DNA from: Methylobacterium sp. J-030
GTDB taxonomy: Bacteria > Pseudomonadota > Alphaproteobacteria > Rhizobiales > Beijerinckiaceae
Assembly (NCBI RefSeq): GCF_022829545.1
Contig: NZ_JAKSYM010000150.1
Location: 1 to 64,000 of the forward strand
DNA length: 64,000 nt
Direction of reading: 5' to 3'
Translations under genes and position numbers: made by a program
In this document: positions 20,563 to 61,707 of the stretch, piece by piece
Position numbering within the stretch: position 1 is the first letter of the stretch
Layout of the letters: each line of letters opens with the position of its first letter
Notes under the pieces: model-generated
Database searches by the model: none
What the model was told of the DNA's origin: nothing
What the model saw: only the letters and a program-made list of their open reading frames with translations

Positions 20563-20875
20563 CTATCTGGGATGAGCAGTCGTCACCATGCCAGACCGCC
20601 TGATCACGCTTGGGTAGGCCGCCTCCGCGTTGCGGATCTGGCGGGCCTCGTGGATCGCTTTGCGGGTCAGGCCGAGGTCGGCAACCGTGGCGAGGGTGTT
20701 CCCCTGTGGAACACCCTCTTGGTGTTGGTTCGACCCGAGCTTTGCTACATCGCCCCGCTCCTGCGCGGCGTCGTATTCATCCGCGAGCCGGCGCTTGGCC
20801 TGCGCCTCGATCTCGAGGGCGTCGGCCTGCGCCCTGTGAGCGGCCGTGATCAGCTCATCAATCTCCCGGTTTGAA
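20563..20875 (-). pseudogene. Phage/plasmid-type hypothetical protein fragment
   Basis: The minus strand reads without stops through a helix-rich, charged sequence (QAKRRLADEYDAAQERGDV) and then TVADLGLTRKAIHEARQIRN before ending at 20563. The last motif resembles HTH-like segments seen in rhizobial phage and plasmid proteins. There is no start codon; the frame emerges directly from the 3' end of the carboxymuconolactone-decarboxylase-like gene, which it overlaps by about 15 bp. It looks like the tail of a gene cut by recombination. The plus-strand frame over the same bases lacks protein-like character. Confidence 0.45.
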
Positions 20876-21514
20876 CGGCGGCTCCTTGCCCGGCGGCACG
20901 CTCTCCTCAGCCATGCTCAGCAGCATGGCGACCGTCACATAGGTACCGGTGAGCGTAGTCAGATCGACGACGCCCTGGTCTCCGAGCACTGCCTTGGCGC
21001 GTGCGAAGGTCTCGTCCGAAACCGCCTGCTTCGTGGAGAGCTCCATGCAGAAGTCGTACACGGCGGCCTCGTCCGGCTTCATACCCTCCGGTCGTTTGTT
21101 GGCCTTCAGATCGGCCGCGACCTGCTCGGAGAGCCCGGCTTTGATCGCCAGCGGGTAGTGAGCGTACCACTCGACCTGCGAGCGCCAGAGGCGCCCCTGA
21201 ATCAGGATAGCGAATTCGTTCAGCCGGGTCGGGACCGACGTGTGCCAGCGCAGGTAGTCGAGAAGATCGTACATCCGCTGCGCCATTTCGGGGCTGCGGA
21301 TCATCGGGTTGTACGGGCCGCCGATGCCAACGCTCGACACCTTCATGATCTTCTCGCCGACCGGACGCTGGGCCGGCGTGAGCTGTTCCATCGTCAGCTG
21401 AGGGAAGCGCGGTTCGCGACCGACAGCGCTCGTGGATGTCTGGGCCACGGACCATCCTCCGGCGGCCGCCACTACGGCGACAGCAGCGAAGCTTTTGGCT
21501 CTGAGCAGGCTCAC
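20858..21514 (-). CDS. Carboxymuconolactone decarboxylase-family protein with signal peptide
   Basis: A 218-residue protein with an N-terminal export signal (SFAAVAVVAAAGGWSVAQ) followed by an AhpD/CMD-like helical domain, seen in RWHTSVPTRLNEFAILIQGR and EWYAHYPLAIKAGL. No CxxC peroxidase pair is present, so AhpD-type peroxidase activity is unlikely. The GTG start has GGGAGGG just upstream. CMD-like proteins of this exported type are common in Methylobacterium and related genera, with unknown reactions. It is monocistronic, flanked by remnant DNA. Confidence 0.75.
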   Translation of the reverse strand: MSLLRAKSFAAVAVVAAAGGWSVAQTSTSAVGREPRFPQLTMEQLTPAQRPVGEKIMKVSSVGIGGPYNPMIRSPEMAQRMYDLLDYLRWHTSVPTRLNEFAILIQGRLWRSQVEWYAHYPLAIKAGLSEQVAADLKANKRPEGMKPDEAAVYDFCMELSTKQAVSDETFARAKAVLGDQGVVDLTTLTGTYVTVAMLLSMAEESVPPGKEPPFKPGD

Positions 21515-21693
21515 GGATCCCTCCCTGGCACGGGCGCGCTCAGGCGCGCCTCTGTGTAAGGGGATAGTCTGTCATGCCTCCTCAGAGATCCAGTGTCCCC
21601 AACCGAGCTATGTCTTGCGCCCTGTTGGCCGCCGCTCTCACGTTCTCCGGCTACGTCGTGCTGCTCGGATGGCGGTGAGGGGAGGGTACTCAG

Positions 21694-22080
21694 TCAGAGG
21701 GAATTCCCGCCGCACACTCGCTCGACGGCATCACCGCTGTCCTCGGGCCGCGTATTGAAAGCGATCGGCACCGTCGGCACGGTCTCCCGGGCCGTGTTGA
21801 TCAAGGCCTCGAACACCGGCAGATGCCGCGGCCAGGATCGTACACCGGCGCCGATCACAAGGCAGTCATACGAGCCGGAAGTGAGCATCTGCTTCAGGAT
21901 GGGTCCAGCCTGATCGTCCGGGCGGATGAAGCACTGCTCGGCCATCCAGCCGCGGTCGCGCATATCCTCCAGCGCGATCTTGATCCCGTGGTGGATCTTC
22001 TCGGCGTTCAGCCCCGGCGGGAGAGCAGGGTCCGAGAAGTCGACCGCTTCTGGTTCGTAGCCAACCATCAGAACGCGCAT
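21694..22080 (-). CDS. Conserved hypothetical protein (128 aa, nucleotide-binding-like fold)
   Basis: It begins MRVLMVGYEPEAVDFSDP and has a later strand-turn DCLVIGAGVRS, giving a Rossmann-like alternation of hydrophobic strands and helices. GGAGGG lies four bases before the ATG. I recognise no named family. Codon use is normal for the window, in contrast to the decayed DNA at 19-20.5 kb. It is the last gene before the tRNA-derived attachment site. Confidence 0.6.
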   Translation of the reverse strand: MRVLMVGYEPEAVDFSDPALPPGLNAEKIHHGIKIALEDMRDRGWMAEQCFIRPDDQAGPILKQMLTSGSYDCLVIGAGVRSWPRHLPVFEALINTARETVPTVPIAFNTRPEDSGDAVERVCGGNSL

Positions 22081-22263
22081 CGGACCCTCCGGCGTCGGGC
22101 GGCAGATCGAGGCAGCCGTTCACGCGAGCTAGGGTCGAGGGGCGCGGCCTCAAGCCGCGATCCCATCTCCGCACAGGCGAAAACCGGTGCAGCGCTTTTT
22201 GGGTCAAAGTTGGGGTTATTGGGCCGTTGCGCCAGCAAAACCGAGCTAAACTATTGATTTTGT

Positions 22264-22307
22264 TGGCGCGCCCTACGGGAATCGAACCCGTGTTTTCGCC
22301 GTGAAAG
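22264..22307 (-). other. tRNA-Glu 3' end remnant, probable integration (att) site
   Basis: The minus strand reads CTTTCACGGCG, then a T-arm ACGGG-TTCGATT-CCCGT, an acceptor strand AGGGCGC and discriminator G followed by CCA. This matches the anticodon loop (TTC) through the 3' end of alphaproteobacterial tRNA-Glu. The 5' half (D-arm and acceptor partner GCGCCCT) is absent. A displaced tRNA 3' end 148 bp from an integrase is the classical footprint of site-specific integration. The matching intact tRNA-Glu is not in the window. Confidence 0.8.
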
Positions 22308-22454
22308 AGTGGTAACGAGGCATTTTGCGGCGGTCGGCGAACGTCGACGAACTCCTAATCTGCTCTGTAGACAGAGTCTTTCGTCCTTGCAGGTTCGCTA
22401 GCGTCCGCCTACGCCTTTTCCGTACGATTTCCGTACGGAAGCGGAGAGGGCGCC

Positions 22455-23756
22455 ATGGCTCGCACGGTACGCAACGCCAAGCTCGACACGCGTTCTGGGC
22501 GCGCCAAGCTCGCCCCTCGGCGCGAGCCATACTGGACGGTGATCTCGACCGGCTGTGCCGTGGGCTACCGGCGCGGCGCCAATGGCGGTACGTGGGTCGC
22601 GCGGATGCGTGACGGAGCCAAGCAGCATTACGACGCGCTCGGCGCCGCCGACGATAGCCGGGATGCCGACGGCCTGATCGTGTTCTCGTTCGCTCAGGCT
22701 CAAGAGCGGGCGCGTGTCTACTTTGCTCGGAAGGCGCGCGAGCTCGCCGGCTTCGATGAGGAGGCGGTTGAAGTCCCCTGGACGGTCGCGATGGCGCTGA
22801 CCGACTACCTCGCCGCGCGGGAGCGACGCGGGTCGAAGGGCGTGCGGGCAGACCGCTACGCAGCTGAGGCACGCATCCTGCCGGTGCTCGGCGCGCTCGA
22901 ATTGACGGCGCTGACGACGAAGCGCATCCGCGACTGGCACCATGATCTGGCCGAGGCGCCGAAGCTGCGCCGGACCGCGTCTGGGGAAGAAACGCAGCGT
23001 TTGGCCATTGTCGATTCGACGGACCCGGAGGCCGTGCGGGCGCGGCGCGCGACGGCCAACCGAGTGCTGACGGTCCTGAAGGCCGCGCTCAATCATGCGT
23101 TCCAAGAGGGCAAGGCCAGCTCGGACGAGGCTTGGCGCCGGGTGAAGCCCTACCGGGAGGCTGATGCCGCTAAAATCCGTTATCTGACCGCGGCCGAGTG
23201 CCGGCGCCTGCTCGACGCCTGCGCCGGGCCATTCCGAGATCTCGTGCGCGGCGCACTAGCAACAGGGTGCCGCTACGGCGAGCTCGGGCGGATCCGGGCG
23301 TCCGACTTCGACGCGCAGGCGCGCACCGTGATGATCGCCAAGTCGAAGCAAGCCAAGCCGCGCCATATCGCACTGAGCGATGAAGGGGCCACCTTCTTCG
23401 CCGCGCTCACCGCCGAGCGGCCGAGGACCGCGCTGGTCTTCTCCCGGACGGATGGAGGAGCCTGGGGAGCCTCACACCAACAGCGGCCGCTGATCGAAGC
23501 CTCGGCGCGGGCGGGACTTGAGCCGCCGTGCACCTTTCACATCCTACGGCACACCTACGCCAGCATGCTGGCAATGAGCGGGGTGCCGATGCGCGTCATC
23601 GCCGACCAGCTAGGGCACGCCGACACGCGCGTCACCGAGAAACACTACGCCCATCTCACGCCGACCTACGTGGCCGAGGCGGTGCGCCGATCGCTGCCAA
23701 AGCTCGGCCTAATTGACGCGCCATCCGCCCCCGAACATTTTAGAAGCGCAGAATGA
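22455..23756 (+). CDS. Tyrosine recombinase / phage-type integrase
   Basis: A 433-residue site-specific recombinase. A SAM-like core-binding region (about 105-230) is followed by the catalytic domain with R273 in ATGCRYGEL, H362 and R365 in HILRHTY, H388 in QLGHAD and the nucleophile Y398 in KHYAHL. All catalytic residues are present, so the enzyme may be active. GGAGAGGG precedes the ATG. It lies beside the tRNA-Glu remnant and points away from it, consistent with an island that extends rightward. Confidence 0.93.
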   Translation: MARTVRNAKLDTRSGRAKLAPRREPYWTVISTGCAVGYRRGANGGTWVARMRDGAKQHYDALGAADDSRDADGLIVFSFAQAQERARVYFARKARELAGFDEEAVEVPWTVAMALTDYLAARERRGSKGVRADRYAAEARILPVLGALELTALTTKRIRDWHHDLAEAPKLRRTASGEETQRLAIVDSTDPEAVRARRATANRVLTVLKAALNHAFQEGKASSDEAWRRVKPYREADAAKIRYLTAAECRRLLDACAGPFRDLVRGALATGCRYGELGRIRASDFDAQARTVMIAKSKQAKPRHIALSDEGATFFAALTAERPRTALVFSRTDGGAWGASHQQRPLIEASARAGLEPPCTFHILRHTYASMLAMSGVPMRVIADQLGHADTRVTEKHYAHLTPTYVAEAVRRSLPKLGLIDAPSAPEHFRSAE

Positions 23757-24023: not shown

Positions 24024-24248
24024 CGGGTGCGGGTGGCCTAGGGCGTGAGCCAGGAGCGATTGGCAGCGGACGCCGGCGTGGACTGGGCCTACCTGGGCGG
24101 GCTGGAGCGGCAGGCGGAGATCCCGACGGTGGACCTGCTCGACCGGGTGGCCGGTGCGCTCAGCGTGCCGCTGGGTGAGCTGTTCTCAGCGCCGGGACCG
24201 GACGAGGCGCCGCCGGCCTCGCTGCGAGGCGGACAGCGTAAGGGTTAG
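24024..24248 (+). pseudogene. XRE-family helix-turn-helix regulator with in-frame stop
   Basis: The frame reads LRRVRVA, a TAG at about 24039, then GVSQERLAADAGVDWAYLGG and TVDLLDRVAGALSVPLGELF. This is the HTH_3 fold, whose usual beginning is an LRRARGLSQ-like helix, so the stop falls inside helix 1. A GTG at 24045 could restart translation, but the product would lack the first helix. It is probably a broken regulator of the integrated element. Confidence 0.6.
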
Positions 24249-27421: not shown

Positions 27422-28546
27422 ATGCTGTCGCCATCGGCCGCCATGGAGCGGGTGTCCGCGCTCGGACGCGCAGTAGGTTCGGCGGCAATGACGAGGAAGA
27501 TGCCAGGAGTTTCGTCGCCCCCGGGTGGAGCCGTCGTGGTGGACGTGTTCTGCGGCGCGGGCGGCCTCTCGCTCGGACTGCGCGAGGCCGGGCTTGCGAT
27601 CGCTGCCGGGATTGATCTGGATCCAGCCTGCCGATACCCCTACGAGCACAACATCGGCGCCAGCTTCCACGGTCGCGACATCATGGGAGTGTCCGCGGCC
27701 GAGGTGGCGACGATGTTCGGGGATGCTCCCGTCCGGGTGCTCGCCGGATGCGCCCCCTGCCAGCCCTTCTCAGGCTACACGACGAAGCGGCGTGAGAGCG
27801 ATGGGCGGTGGAGGTTGCTGCTGGAGTTTCTGCGCGTCGTCGAGCAGATGCGTCCCGAGATCGTCACGCTAGAGAACGTGCCGCGGCTCACGCTGCTGCC
27901 GCTATGGGGCGAGTTCGTCCGCGCCCTCGAAGCCTTGGGCTACCACGTCGTCTGGAAGGTCGTGGACGCGGCCGACTTCGGCGTACCGCAGAACCGCCGC
28001 CGCGTCGTGCTCCTGGCGTCCCGCCTCGGCGCGATTACGATGCCCAAGGCGACGGAGCATGTGCATCGGACCGTACGAGACGAAGTCTTCGACCGCCCCG
28101 CCATCACGGCGGGAGAGTGCGATCGCCACGACCGGTTGCACCAGGCTCGCGGCCTGACCGCGATCAACTTGGAGCGCATCCGGATCGCCGAGCCGGAAGG
28201 GACTTGGAAGCGCTGGCCCGAGCACATGCGCGTCAAGTGCCATACCGAACCGACCGGCCGGACGTACCCCTCGGTCTACGGCCGCATGGCTTGGGACAAG
28301 CCGTCGCCGACGATCACCACGCAGTTCTACGGGTTCGGGAACGGCCGCTTCGGCCATCCGGAACAGGATCGCGCGCTGACCTTGAGGGAAGGCGCCATGC
28401 TGCAGTCGTTTCCGGCGGAATTCGAGTTCGTGCCACCTGGCAAGCCGATCGTCGCCCGCACCATCGGTCGATTGATTGGCAACGCCGTCCCGCCGGCCCT
28501 GGGTAGGGCGATCGGTCGAACCATCATCGAGCACATCGGCGTATAG
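27422..28546 (+). CDS. C5-cytosine DNA methyltransferase (Dcm-like)
   Basis: A 374-residue enzyme with all key m5C motifs: I VVDVFCGAGGLSLG, IV GCAPCQPFS with the catalytic cysteine at about residue 113, VI TLENVPR, VIII PQNRRRVVLL and X IGNAVPP. The target-recognition region between VIII and IX is short. The start is uncertain between ATG 27422 (AAGGGA upstream) and ATG 27488, closer to motif I. It methylates cytosine in DNA at an unknown recognition site. It is convergent with the HEPN gene (10-bp gap) and belongs to a cassette with DUF262 and Vsr genes. Confidence 0.93.
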   Translation: MLSPSAAMERVSALGRAVGSAAMTRKMPGVSSPPGGAVVVDVFCGAGGLSLGLREAGLAIAAGIDLDPACRYPYEHNIGASFHGRDIMGVSAAEVATMFGDAPVRVLAGCAPCQPFSGYTTKRRESDGRWRLLLEFLRVVEQMRPEIVTLENVPRLTLLPLWGEFVRALEALGYHVVWKVVDAADFGVPQNRRRVVLLASRLGAITMPKATEHVHRTVRDEVFDRPAITAGECDRHDRLHQARGLTAINLERIRIAEPEGTWKRWPEHMRVKCHTEPTGRTYPSVYGRMAWDKPSPTITTQFYGFGNGRFGHPEQDRALTLREGAMLQSFPAEFEFVPPGKPIVARTIGRLIGNAVPPALGRAIGRTIIEHIGV

Positions 28547-28555
28547 TAGGCCGGA

Positions 28556-29227
28556 TCAGGGCGGAGGCACCTGACCGACCGCAAGATAGCCGGATGCCTC
28601 CAGATAATCATCGACGTTCTCAAGTATGGCCTCGATGTAAGCCAGCGATCGGACGCTGATTTCTAGAAGCGCTCGCGCCGAATAGTCGCGTCCAATATCG
28701 TCATATGTTTTGAGGCCGTGCGAGAGGTCGTTCCTGACATCCTTGATGGTCAGAAGATCTGCCCCGTCCCTCGTTCGAGTTGCATCCGTGAAGTGACTGA
28801 AGCCGTATGTGCCGGCGATCTTACGGACAAGTCTGGCGTCTACGTTGCCCGAGAACTGATGATCCACATCGAGGGACATGGCGACGAAGTCTATCGGCAT
28901 GTCCGCCAGGAGCACGTGATCGTCCGGGTTCTTCTTGCGCCGGAAGCCTTTCACGACCTCGCGGCGCAGCGAAGGCGACAGGCTGCCGAAGGCTACCCGC
29001 TGGCCGATCATCGTGTCGTGCACGCCGTCAAGGGCGCCGCGAGCCGATGCCTCGATCAGGTTGTAGAGGATCAGGAACGTCCCCGCACGCAGGACGTGCA
29101 GCCGTGCGAGATCGACTGGGCGTCCGCCGCCCGCTTGAGTCTCGCGGTCGGCCTTCGACACCACGGAGAGGTAGCGGCGCACCTGCGAGCGGCGGCGCCG
29201 GAAGTCCTCGACGAAGGCGCGACTCAT
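28556..29227 (-). CDS. HEPN-domain protein (MAE_28990/MAE_18760-like)
   Basis: A 223-residue, mostly helical protein. Near the C-terminus DVRNDLSHG provides the Rx4H motif (R165, H170) of HEPN ribonucleases. The general layout resembles the MAE_28990/MAE_18760 HEPN group that accompanies DUF262 proteins. Its start overlaps the DUF262 stop by 4 bp, so the two are co-translated and probably form a functional pair. Expected role: RNA cleavage as the toxic or effector arm of a defence module, from family knowledge. Which partner senses or restrains it is not known. Confidence 0.78.
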   Translation of the reverse strand: MSRAFVEDFRRRRSQVRRYLSVVSKADRETQAGGGRPVDLARLHVLRAGTFLILYNLIEASARGALDGVHDTMIGQRVAFGSLSPSLRREVVKGFRRKKNPDDHVLLADMPIDFVAMSLDVDHQFSGNVDARLVRKIAGTYGFSHFTDATRTRDGADLLTIKDVRNDLSHGLKTYDDIGRDYSARALLEISVRSLAYIEAILENVDDYLEASGYLAVGQVPPP

Positions 29228-30327
29228 CGGCCGAGAAGCCGATCGCGGACGTACTCGATCCGGCCAGTCACCCGGTTGCGGTTGTTGGCTGCGTCGGATG
29301 TGGTGAGCTCACGGAATTTCGGTTTGCTGAGATGCCCCACGAGGTCCCATGCGCCCGGCAGGGAGGAATCCTCTCGCATAGCCAGCGCGATCCCGACGGC
29401 GATCGCCTCGAACCGCACTCGCGGCGTCGACTTGGCGCTCGGGCTCTTCCGGAAGCCGTTCGGCAGAATTTCGGACACGAGGCGAAGCATGTCGTCCCAA
29501 GCGGCCCGCAAACGCGTCTCGGTCGGACCGCCGGGGCCCTCCTGTTCCATCGCGGCGTTCATGCGCTTCGCATAGTCGTCGACGAAGAGCGATACGACTT
29601 TGCCGGATTCGGTCTGGCCGTACGTGGTGTAGTCGTCCATGTAGGCGAAGAACCGTGCTGCTAGTTCCTCACGCTCGAAACGCTTTTCGGCCGCTTTGGA
29701 TAGTGGTGCGAGGGTCTTAAAAGCTTCTTGACGAGCAACTTCGCGGACAAGATCTACGAATGGCCCGGGCATGCGGCCGCGTCGACTTTCCATGTCATTC
29801 AGGCGGACCGGGCCCGTGTTGATTCTGTCGAACATGTCGCGGCGGGTCTCCTCGTCCGCCTTTTCGGTCAGTTCGATGAGGCGCAGCGTGATCCTGCCGA
29901 AGCGGCGCTGGCGCGATGCGAGCATGTCGCCGAACCGGAAGCCATTGAGGCCCGGAAGCTTCTCCATGCCTTCGAGGACGAGTTCGCCGGTCAGGAACCG
30001 TGCCAGGGTGCGGATGCGCTGCGTGCCGTCCACGATCTCCAGTCGGCCTTCGAGGTCGGGATCCTCGTTGCCGACGTCGGCGACGAACAGGTACGGCACC
30101 GGCAGGCCGATCAGCAGCGACTCGATGAACTTCGACTGCCGCTTGTCCTCCCAGATAAGATCCCGCTGATAGTCAGGGACGAAGATCTCGTTCTCGCCCT
30201 CCAGCTTTCCGGTAAGGTGCTTCTCGACCAGCACCTCGACGGGGTATTCCCGCACGGTGTAGTCGACGACCTGCTGAACGGTGCGGATCTGCCGCTCGGC
30301 CTCGTCGATCTCGTCTTTGCTTTTCAC
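29224..30327 (-). CDS. DUF262 (GmrS-like) protein
   Basis: A 367-residue DUF262 protein. The ParB/sulfiredoxin-like nucleotide site appears as PDYQRDLIWED at about 51-61 and EIVDGTQR at about 97-104, where many relatives have DGQQR; the substitution of T for the first Q is worth noting. A GTG start has GGAG upstream. The GmrS half of the type IV enzyme GmrSD carries this domain and uses nucleotide hydrolysis in cleavage of modified DNA. No DUF1524 nuclease domain is fused; the HEPN protein follows instead. It is divergent from vsr with only 46 bp between starts. Confidence 0.85.
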   Translation of the reverse strand: MKSKDEIDEAERQIRTVQQVVDYTVREYPVEVLVEKHLTGKLEGENEIFVPDYQRDLIWEDKRQSKFIESLLIGLPVPYLFVADVGNEDPDLEGRLEIVDGTQRIRTLARFLTGELVLEGMEKLPGLNGFRFGDMLASRQRRFGRITLRLIELTEKADEETRRDMFDRINTGPVRLNDMESRRGRMPGPFVDLVREVARQEAFKTLAPLSKAAEKRFEREELAARFFAYMDDYTTYGQTESGKVVSLFVDDYAKRMNAAMEQEGPGGPTETRLRAAWDDMLRLVSEILPNGFRKSPSAKSTPRVRFEAIAVGIALAMREDSSLPGAWDLVGHLSKPKFRELTTSDAANNRNRVTGRIEYVRDRLLGR

Positions 30328-61110: not shown

Positions 61111-61707
61111 TTATTCTTCGCCCATCAGGGCTCCCGCGAAGCCCTTTATTAGATGCGCAAGCTCGTCCTCCTGTACGAGGCACGCAGCTTCCGCCGGAGC
61201 AAACCAGTGCAGGGCGCGCTGGCTCTGCTCCGGCCAACGCTCATGCTGGCCATCAACGCGCAGCGCATAGACGCGGACCTCGCAAGGGACCTCCACGCCG
61301 TTATCGAAGCGCTTATCGTAGCGGTACTTGCCGAGTGAGTTCGTCTCGATCTGTCCCTTCAGCCCGGCCTCCTCGAACGCCTCCCGCTCGGCGGCCTGAT
61401 GCGCCTTGCGGCCGACCATCGGCCAGCCCTTCGGGATGATCCAGCGCCCGGTGTCACGCGAGGTGATCAGCAGTATCTCTAGCCGCCCTTCAGGGCTGAT
61501 GCGGAACGGCAGAGCCGCAACCTGCTTGAGCGGCTTGGCCTGAGCCTTCCGCAGCAGCTTCTTTAGGCTCGACCGTTTAGATGGCTTCTTCAGTGCAAAC
61601 CTCAGGAATGCGGGCGGGAGGGGTTCGCTGCCAAGGGCTCTGCAACCAATCACACCATGGCACCTCCACATAGATGAAACGACCTCACCACATCGGGGGC
61701 AGATCAT
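61111..61707 (-). CDS. NUDIX hydrolase (DIPP-like)
   Basis: A 198-residue protein. An N-terminal CPRCG..C-type segment is followed by a basic linker and a NUDIX domain with GWPMVGRKAHQAAEREAFEE and the AGLKG end; the REAFEEAG core is intact, while the upstream glutamate of the classical box is replaced. This form resembles diphosphoinositol-polyphosphate-type (DIPP) NUDIX proteins of alphaproteobacteria. It hydrolyses X-linked nucleoside diphosphates or polyphosphates in the family. The N-terminal ~60 residues are an unusual extension. Confidence 0.82.
   Translation of the reverse strand: MICPRCGEVVSSMWRCHGVIGCRALGSEPLPPAFLRFALKKPSKRSSLKKLLRKAQAKPLKQVAALPFRISPEGRLEILLITSRDTGRWIIPKGWPMVGRKAHQAAEREAFEEAGLKGQIETNSLGKYRYDKRFDNGVEVPCEVRVYALRVDGQHERWPEQSQRALHWFAPAEAACLVQEDELAHLIKGFAGALMGEE

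Follow-up and report, generated by a model that had tools for sequence, protein, structure and literature searches.

Integrase-side attachment junction of a tRNA-Glu island in Methylobacterium, probably stacked against the arm of a second island

The stretch of DNA analyzed here (the window, 64,000 nucleotides, positions 1-64000 of contig C169 in genome G000, which is assembled as 6.92 Mb in 411 contigs) very probably contains the integrase-side attachment junction of a tRNA-Glu island of the type here named A, stacked against an arm that belongs to an island of type B. The attachment core, the integrase gene, arm repeats at both kinds of end and a junction of two arm types are all read from the sequence.

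Results

The attachment core and the integrase

The core, located at 22264-22307 on the minus strand, is a 3' fragment of tRNA-Glu(TTC) comprising positions 33-76, from the anticodon loop through the terminal CCA. All 44 of its 44 bases are identical to the intact tRNA-Glu(TTC) of the same genome. The match of the junction to the genome's own tRNA-Glu (E = 2.1e-19, 98% over 53 bp) excludes chance for the core, and since ARAGORN called no tRNA gene in the window, the 22264-22307 core is a fragment. Rfam returned two matches for 22100-22500, mir-3204 and Plastid-ycf2, both well under the gathering scores, and the tRNA family was absent from the list. The fragment is followed on the opposite strand by an open integrase gene (22455-23756, plus strand) without internal stop that encodes a tyrosine integrase of 433 aa, with matches to PF00589 (E=2e-25) and the PHROG integrase family phrog_1 (E=8.2e-57). 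The catalytic set R273, K298, H362-x-x-R365, H388 and Y398 is complete (R-K-HxxR-H-Y). These results bear out the original prediction of an intact integrase beside a tRNA-Glu 3' remnant reaching from anticodon loop to CCA on the minus strand.

A search of 111 genomes of the genus with the integrase gave 38 matches in 33 genomes. Of the 38 matches, 30 had loci, which together with L157-L160 made 34 rows examined; L157 and L158 were left out as duplicates and L159 and L174 as cut by a contig end, leaving 30 loci. In the alignment of these 30 rows R273, K298, R365 and Y398 are invariant, and H362 and H388 nearly so. In 30/30 integrase loci with upstream DNA, a distance of 122-154 bp separates the integrase start from a tRNA-Glu core that precedes it on the other strand, and the same layout places the P arm of the type-A island, presumed to be the integrase promoter region, at 22308-22454 (plus strand) between core and integrase. 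The tree of the 30 integrases resolved type A with 7 rows (100/99), type C with 8 rows (100/100) and type D with 12 rows (100/99); long branches lead to L173 (type B), L183 and L160 (type E), the placement of L160 being unsure. Named relatives at 86% identity or above numbered three, all from Methylobacterium, and the genomes near to G000 are congeneric with it; on these grounds G000 is assigned to Methylobacterium. A related integrase was present in 344 plasmid records, none of them at 60% identity or more, and the best was 44.8% identical over 97% of the query (Sphingomonas daechungensis).

The model of the whole integrase (pLDDT 81.4, pTM 0.53) aligned through residues 37-392 with lambda Int 1z1b_B (Z 17.2, rmsd 9.5, 284 aligned). 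When the first 104 residues were folded alone (pLDDT 82.3, pTM 0.74), the best of the VIA-align matches listed were arm-type binding domains (3jtz, Z 8.3, rmsd 2.6, 74 aligned; 3rmp_C, Z 7.7; 3ju0, Z 7.7), the next match having a Z of 4.8. An N-terminal arm-type binding domain is predicted from the models; the best Foldseek E-value for the N-terminal model was a weak 0.042. Adjoining the 3' side of the integrase gene is a short ORF at 24060-24248, by eye similar to an XRE-type regulator and without Pfam or PHROG match, which is a candidate for island control.

Arm repeats and the IHF-like site

Directly before the integrase gene is a repeat specific for each type: TTTCCGTA in A, TTGGG in B, TTGGACA in C, CAACGAA in D and GGGACAC in E. 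Within 75 bp before the gene, 26/30 loci had a direct repeat, defined by agreement in 7 or more of 8 letters and a spacing of 10-13, compared with 5.6% of single-base shuffles; the four loci without such a repeat were L172, L173, L183 and L190. The type-A arm repeat, TTTCCGTA-N3-TTTCCGTA, is found in the window at 22417-22435 (plus strand), where the sequence is TTTCCGTACGATTTCCGTA, 109 bases from the core and ending 20 bases before the integrase start. With at most 2 mismatches, TTTCCGTACGATTTCCGTA was found at one further place in G000, C203:126850-126868 (minus strand), 48 bp past the intact tRNA.

Across the 111 genus genomes the type-A pattern occurred 13 times, in 8 genomes, and the reversed-pattern control 0 times. 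All 13 occurrences are beside a tRNA-Glu core at near-constant distances. Five mark integrase ends, with 109 bases between core and repeat (G000, G010, G017, G026 and G115), seven lie 47-48 bp past an intact tRNA-Glu (the same five genomes plus G019 and G029), and one is in a tandem junction of G116, 48 bp past the fragment of another integrase (35% identical). An integrase with 64% or more identity to that of the window occurs in these eight genomes and in no other of the set, the next best being 53%. The integrase ends of G019 and G029 miss the exact pattern because their repeats are degenerate, and the type-A integrase of G116 is truncated by a contig end. At the level of sequence, arm-type repeats thus flank the core on either side, occurring at integrase ends and tRNA ends alike, which would suit a heterobivalent integrase.

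Between the tRNA 3' end and the arm on the left side of the window is an IHF-like site (22247-22259, minus strand) that matches WATCAANNNNTTR, which we take to be the IHF consensus, without mismatch at an offset of 4 past the tRNA 3' end. The 57 distinct sequences that flank tRNA-Glu cores on the 3' side are mutually related; the site was exact in 12 of them and present with at most one mismatch in 26, compared with 0.02% and 0.3%, respectively, of shuffles that preserved single-base composition only. The offset was 4 in 26/26 of the sites with at most one mismatch. Each of the 20 flanks with an exact arm repeat (8 of type A, 2 of B and 10 of E) carried an IHF-like site with at most 2 mismatches, and the C203 copy has one mismatch.

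The arm of a second island to the left of the core

The type-B arm repeat TTGGGTCAAAGTTGGGG lies at 22199-22215 (plus strand), 48 bases past the 3' end of the fragment, and is assigned to a left-hand neighbour island whose P' arm would span 22199-22263. The pattern TTGGGNCAAANTTGGGG was found at three places in the 111 genus genomes, all at tRNA-Glu cores (control 0): in the window, before the integrase of G126 (53% identical) and 48 bp past the fragment in G127. The window and G127 have 109 bp in common (44 of core plus 65) at 90%, and the match stops right after the arm repeat. The type-B repeat and the G127 match together indicate that, leftward from 22264, the first DNA is the tRNA-side arm of an island of type B. 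Judged from sequence, two islands that differ in integrase type meet here in a tandem junction at one tRNA core, in which the arm of one island and the integrase arm of the other (B|A) flank the core. Exact repeat patterns identified tandem junctions in 10/30 integrase loci, and 5 more were recognized by eye. The original prediction of a left end of an element is amended in this respect: the sequence just left of 22264 is the tRNA-proximal arm of another island and not plain chromosome flank.

The neighbour island is seen by one end, so that an integrase and fragment of its own for each member of the array were not found. The search of this genome gave no type-B integrase, the next best integrase match having 31% identity, which indicates that island B has lost its far end or that this end is missing from the assembly.

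The intact tRNA-Glu and the extent of the island

Compared with the whole genome, the junction gave four matches. Apart from its own place in the window these were the intact tRNA-Glu(TTC) of C203, a fragment in decay on C55 and a tRNA-Glu(CTC) on C294. The intact tRNA-Glu(TTC) at C203:126726-126801 (plus strand) contains the same 44-bp core as the window. Thus, the core is not confined to a single copy, and all matches beyond the window's own are on other contigs, in agreement with the earlier statement that the window holds no second core. A displaced fragment and an intact tRNA that share a core are both present in G000, and a tyrosine integrase gene adjoins the attachment site, the features of a tDNA island. 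The original prediction of an end of an integrative element is supported by the C203 tRNA-Glu with the same core and arm repeat, and also by relatives. It had further placed the intact tRNA-Glu and the far end to the right. The tRNA exists and the design is seen in relatives, but "to the right" lacks physical support because C169 and C203 are separate contigs. The arm and core sequences make the intact tRNA-Glu(TTC) on C203 the probable far end of the island, and we infer that a single island has its two ends on C169 and C203.

The G+C content falls at the C203 tRNA from 71.9% (87001-126801) to 64.8% (126802-156469). On C169 it is even along the contig, with 66.8% left of the core and 66.2% right of it (22265 to 118272), and the presumed body of the type-A island, with accessory cargo, extends from 23757 to 64000 and on to the contig end at C169:118272. 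The flanks sum to at least 125.6 kb (95,965 on C169 plus 29,668 on C203) if all flanking DNA is island. Type-A islands whose two ends lie on a single contig reach 54.4 kb at most, less than half of this sum, and a composite or rearranged island is therefore possible. By eye, the ends of both contigs resemble transposase starts.

A decayed third attachment end was observed at G000:C55:61119-61320 (L019 11119-11320), with a tRNA-Glu fragment and a type-E arm region from which the integrase is gone. It was considered as a possible outer limit of the array: from the fragment (61119-61167) onward the DNA resembles the type-E integrase end of L160, with 78% identity across 175 bp that include the fragment and extend to one arm repeat. 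In tblastn with the L160 and window integrases no integrase was found at the C55 end, and the 3' flank of the fragment is without an IHF-like site. In G007 the neighbouring DNA has a collinear counterpart in the tRNA-Glu region, but in G002, G010 and G013 the counterpart lies on the opposite side of the tRNA. C55 was kept out of the array because of the missing integrase and IHF-like site and the contradictory collinearity among relatives.

Type-A islands in relatives

In G010, G017, G019 and G029 a single contig holds both a tRNA and a co-oriented fragment, with the integrase at the fragment end, which gave island sizes of 30.7, 48.4, 54.4 and 29.8 kb, respectively, the tRNA being of the CTC type in the last two. 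In the regions compared, the ~1.45-kb core-integrase module accounts for the greater part of the DNA in common with C169, and most cargo is different. The exception is G026, where the type-A integrase end (L217, C1:913570-915017) is inverted relative to the tRNA end (L223, C1:6470766-6470908) on a single 6.56-Mb contig, a layout that would be expected had the island been divided by a large inversion, one of whose breaks fell within it. A second core was absent from the 120 kb read in G002, and the tRNA flank there has neither arm nor IHF-like site, so that the tRNA-Glu of G002 may be an unoccupied site. Sequence beyond the fragments in G007 and G031 was tried as a common chromosome flank and rejected, as parts of it map to different places in other relatives.

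Cargo

Among the selected genes scanned (10 selected proteins in the case of PHROGs), cargo consisted mainly of transporters and catabolic enzymes, with a cytosine methyltransferase/GmrSD-like cluster, a PD-(D/E)XK nuclease and ArdC in addition. The defence-like cluster at 27536-30327 includes a cytosine-5 DNA methyltransferase (PF00145), a PHROG 3846 protein and a GmrSD_N protein (PF03235), the last resembling NsnA and PD-T4-2_A in PADLOC. Near the intact tRNA, at G000:C203:136300-144491 (L015 9300-17491), are genes for a 700-aa AAA/clamp-loader-like protein, a PDDEXK_13/REase-ARP nuclease and proteins of 508 aa and 438 aa without Pfam, PADLOC or PHROGs matches; this stretch is possibly an undescribed defence locus. 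Genes for an NMT1-like binding protein and an NHL-repeat protein at G000:C169:97867-100064 (L013 13867-16064) are common, at 86-92% DNA identity, to C219 of G115 and to G026 near the type-A integrase.

Alternative explanations

The reading of the left side as the original chromosome flank of the tRNA gene is improbable. A chromosome flank is what a single-island case would place on the 3' side of the fragment, and the genes at 20857-22094 have DNA matches of 77-85% in G026, G007 and G031; however, the matches in G026 and G007 are far from the tRNA-Glu of those genomes. The left flank has an IHF-like site together with the type-B arm repeat, which elsewhere in the genus is found only at an integrase (G126) and past a fragment (G127), and its G+C content of 66.8% stands against 71.9% for the C203 backbone. 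Still less probable is that the island is a self-transferring integrative and conjugative element. Its large size, the varied cargo and an ArdC-type antirestriction gene on the C203 side would be in keeping with one, but the only match in the genome to the coupling protein family PF02534 is on C57, with none on C169 or C203. The one relaxase family searched, PF03432, had no match in G000, G010, G017, G026 or G115, although this family was detected in only 1/14 control genomes. With neither a PF02534 coupling protein on C169 or C203 nor a PF03432 relaxase found, self-transfer is unlikely on present evidence.

A rearrangement carries more weight, although it too is judged unlikely. In that event an inversion or IS-mediated event would have parted the integrase end from the tRNA end, and the DNA right of the integrase would no longer be one excisable island. 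The opposed type-A ends of G026, at 0.91 and 6.47 Mb of one contig, are a precedent, and the summed size is unusually large here and the ends of both contigs look transposase-like by eye. Against this, G000 itself shows no direct sign of such an event, and the G+C content of C169 is even.

Discussion

The features of this junction correspond to known classes of element. Islands at anticodon-loop sites and tandem arrays are already known (PMC4383910, PMC3218068). Of the 3919 islands in the Islander database paper (PMC4383910), 2083 have anticodon-centred sites, and its tandems number 125. Islander tDNA islands likewise have a tyrosine integrase, a co-oriented intact tRNA with a displaced 3' fragment from the anticodon loop, and tandem arrays; here, in contrast, ends are paired across contigs only through clade-specific arm repeats. 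Resemblance to lambda- and P4-like integrases (1z1b, 3jtz, 3rmp, 3ju0) extends to the catalytic residues, to an N-terminal model nearest arm-type domains and, at the level of sequence motifs, to a core flanked on either side by putative arm repeats, with an intervening IHF-like site, although overall identity to lambda Int is low (19% to 1z1b_B).

By analogy with these systems, insertion would have begun with recombination by the integrase between an island attP bearing a copy of the tRNA 3' half and the anticodon-loop region of tRNA-Glu. The tRNA that is seen intact on C203 would have received its 3' half back from the island, and the displaced 44-bp 3' half would have been left at the integrase end. 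The catalytic domain would act at the core while the N-terminal domain holds an arm repeat to either side, one lying 48 bp beyond the tRNA and the other before the integrase gene, at 109 bp from the core. A bend at the IHF-like site just past the CCA would join core and arms, in lambda- or P4-type working. Protein binding, a role for IHF and excision are all presumed from these likenesses. On the left side of the window the P' arm of a second island, of type B, would complete a stack of two islands of different integrase type at one tRNA core.

The module also invites comparison with intS of the KplE1 prophage, for which self-repression is reported (PMC2951348). Both have an attachment arm before the integrase gene that probably overlaps the promoter, a likeness that predicts self-repression. 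They differ in that the integrase gene of KplE1 adjoins argW at attL, whereas that of the window island borders on the displaced fragment, from which it diverges. In the terms of that source the window island has the OD shape; SIT and OD jointly make up <8% of its set, annotated tRNA genes being counted. The position of the arm repeat 20-38 bp before the integrase start suggests that the integrase represses its own promoter, as by analogy it probably does. A promoter and terminator scan of 22200-22500 gave nothing and no sigma-70-like site, and thus the integrase promoter is a presumed one.

For M. extorquens, tRNA-flanked islands are listed (PMC2680597). Among the titles and abstracts listed in literature searches, none mentioned this tRNA-Glu group or arm labels in Methylobacterium, and clade-specific arm labels as a key to stacked islands were likewise not met in these listings, which is no proof of absence. 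We propose, tentatively and as somewhat doubtful, that the tRNA-Glu integrases of Methylobacterium have one core in common and a pair of arm repeats of ~7-8 bp every 11-12 bp peculiar to each clade and placed at near-fixed distances, the arms serving as address labels by which each integrase picks its own two ends. Were each integrase to select its own label, islands with different labels could stack at one tRNA core, and the stack would be separable and its order readable from the junctions even in draft genomes. Ten junctions have an exact foreign repeat beyond the core, and in nine of them this label is not that of the local integrase; the sample is small and picked by similarity to one integrase, so that same-label stacks may also occur. 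At the tenth, L183, the local label is ill-defined and partly like that of the neighbour.

The analysis makes of one tRNA fragment a mapped end of a stacked island hot spot. The arm repeat, unlike the shared tRNA core, tracks the integrase clade and offers a cheap rule for pairing island ends across contigs. If it is true that the labels decide which ends join, this would account for the coexistence of different islands at a single tRNA gene with no cross-excision between them.
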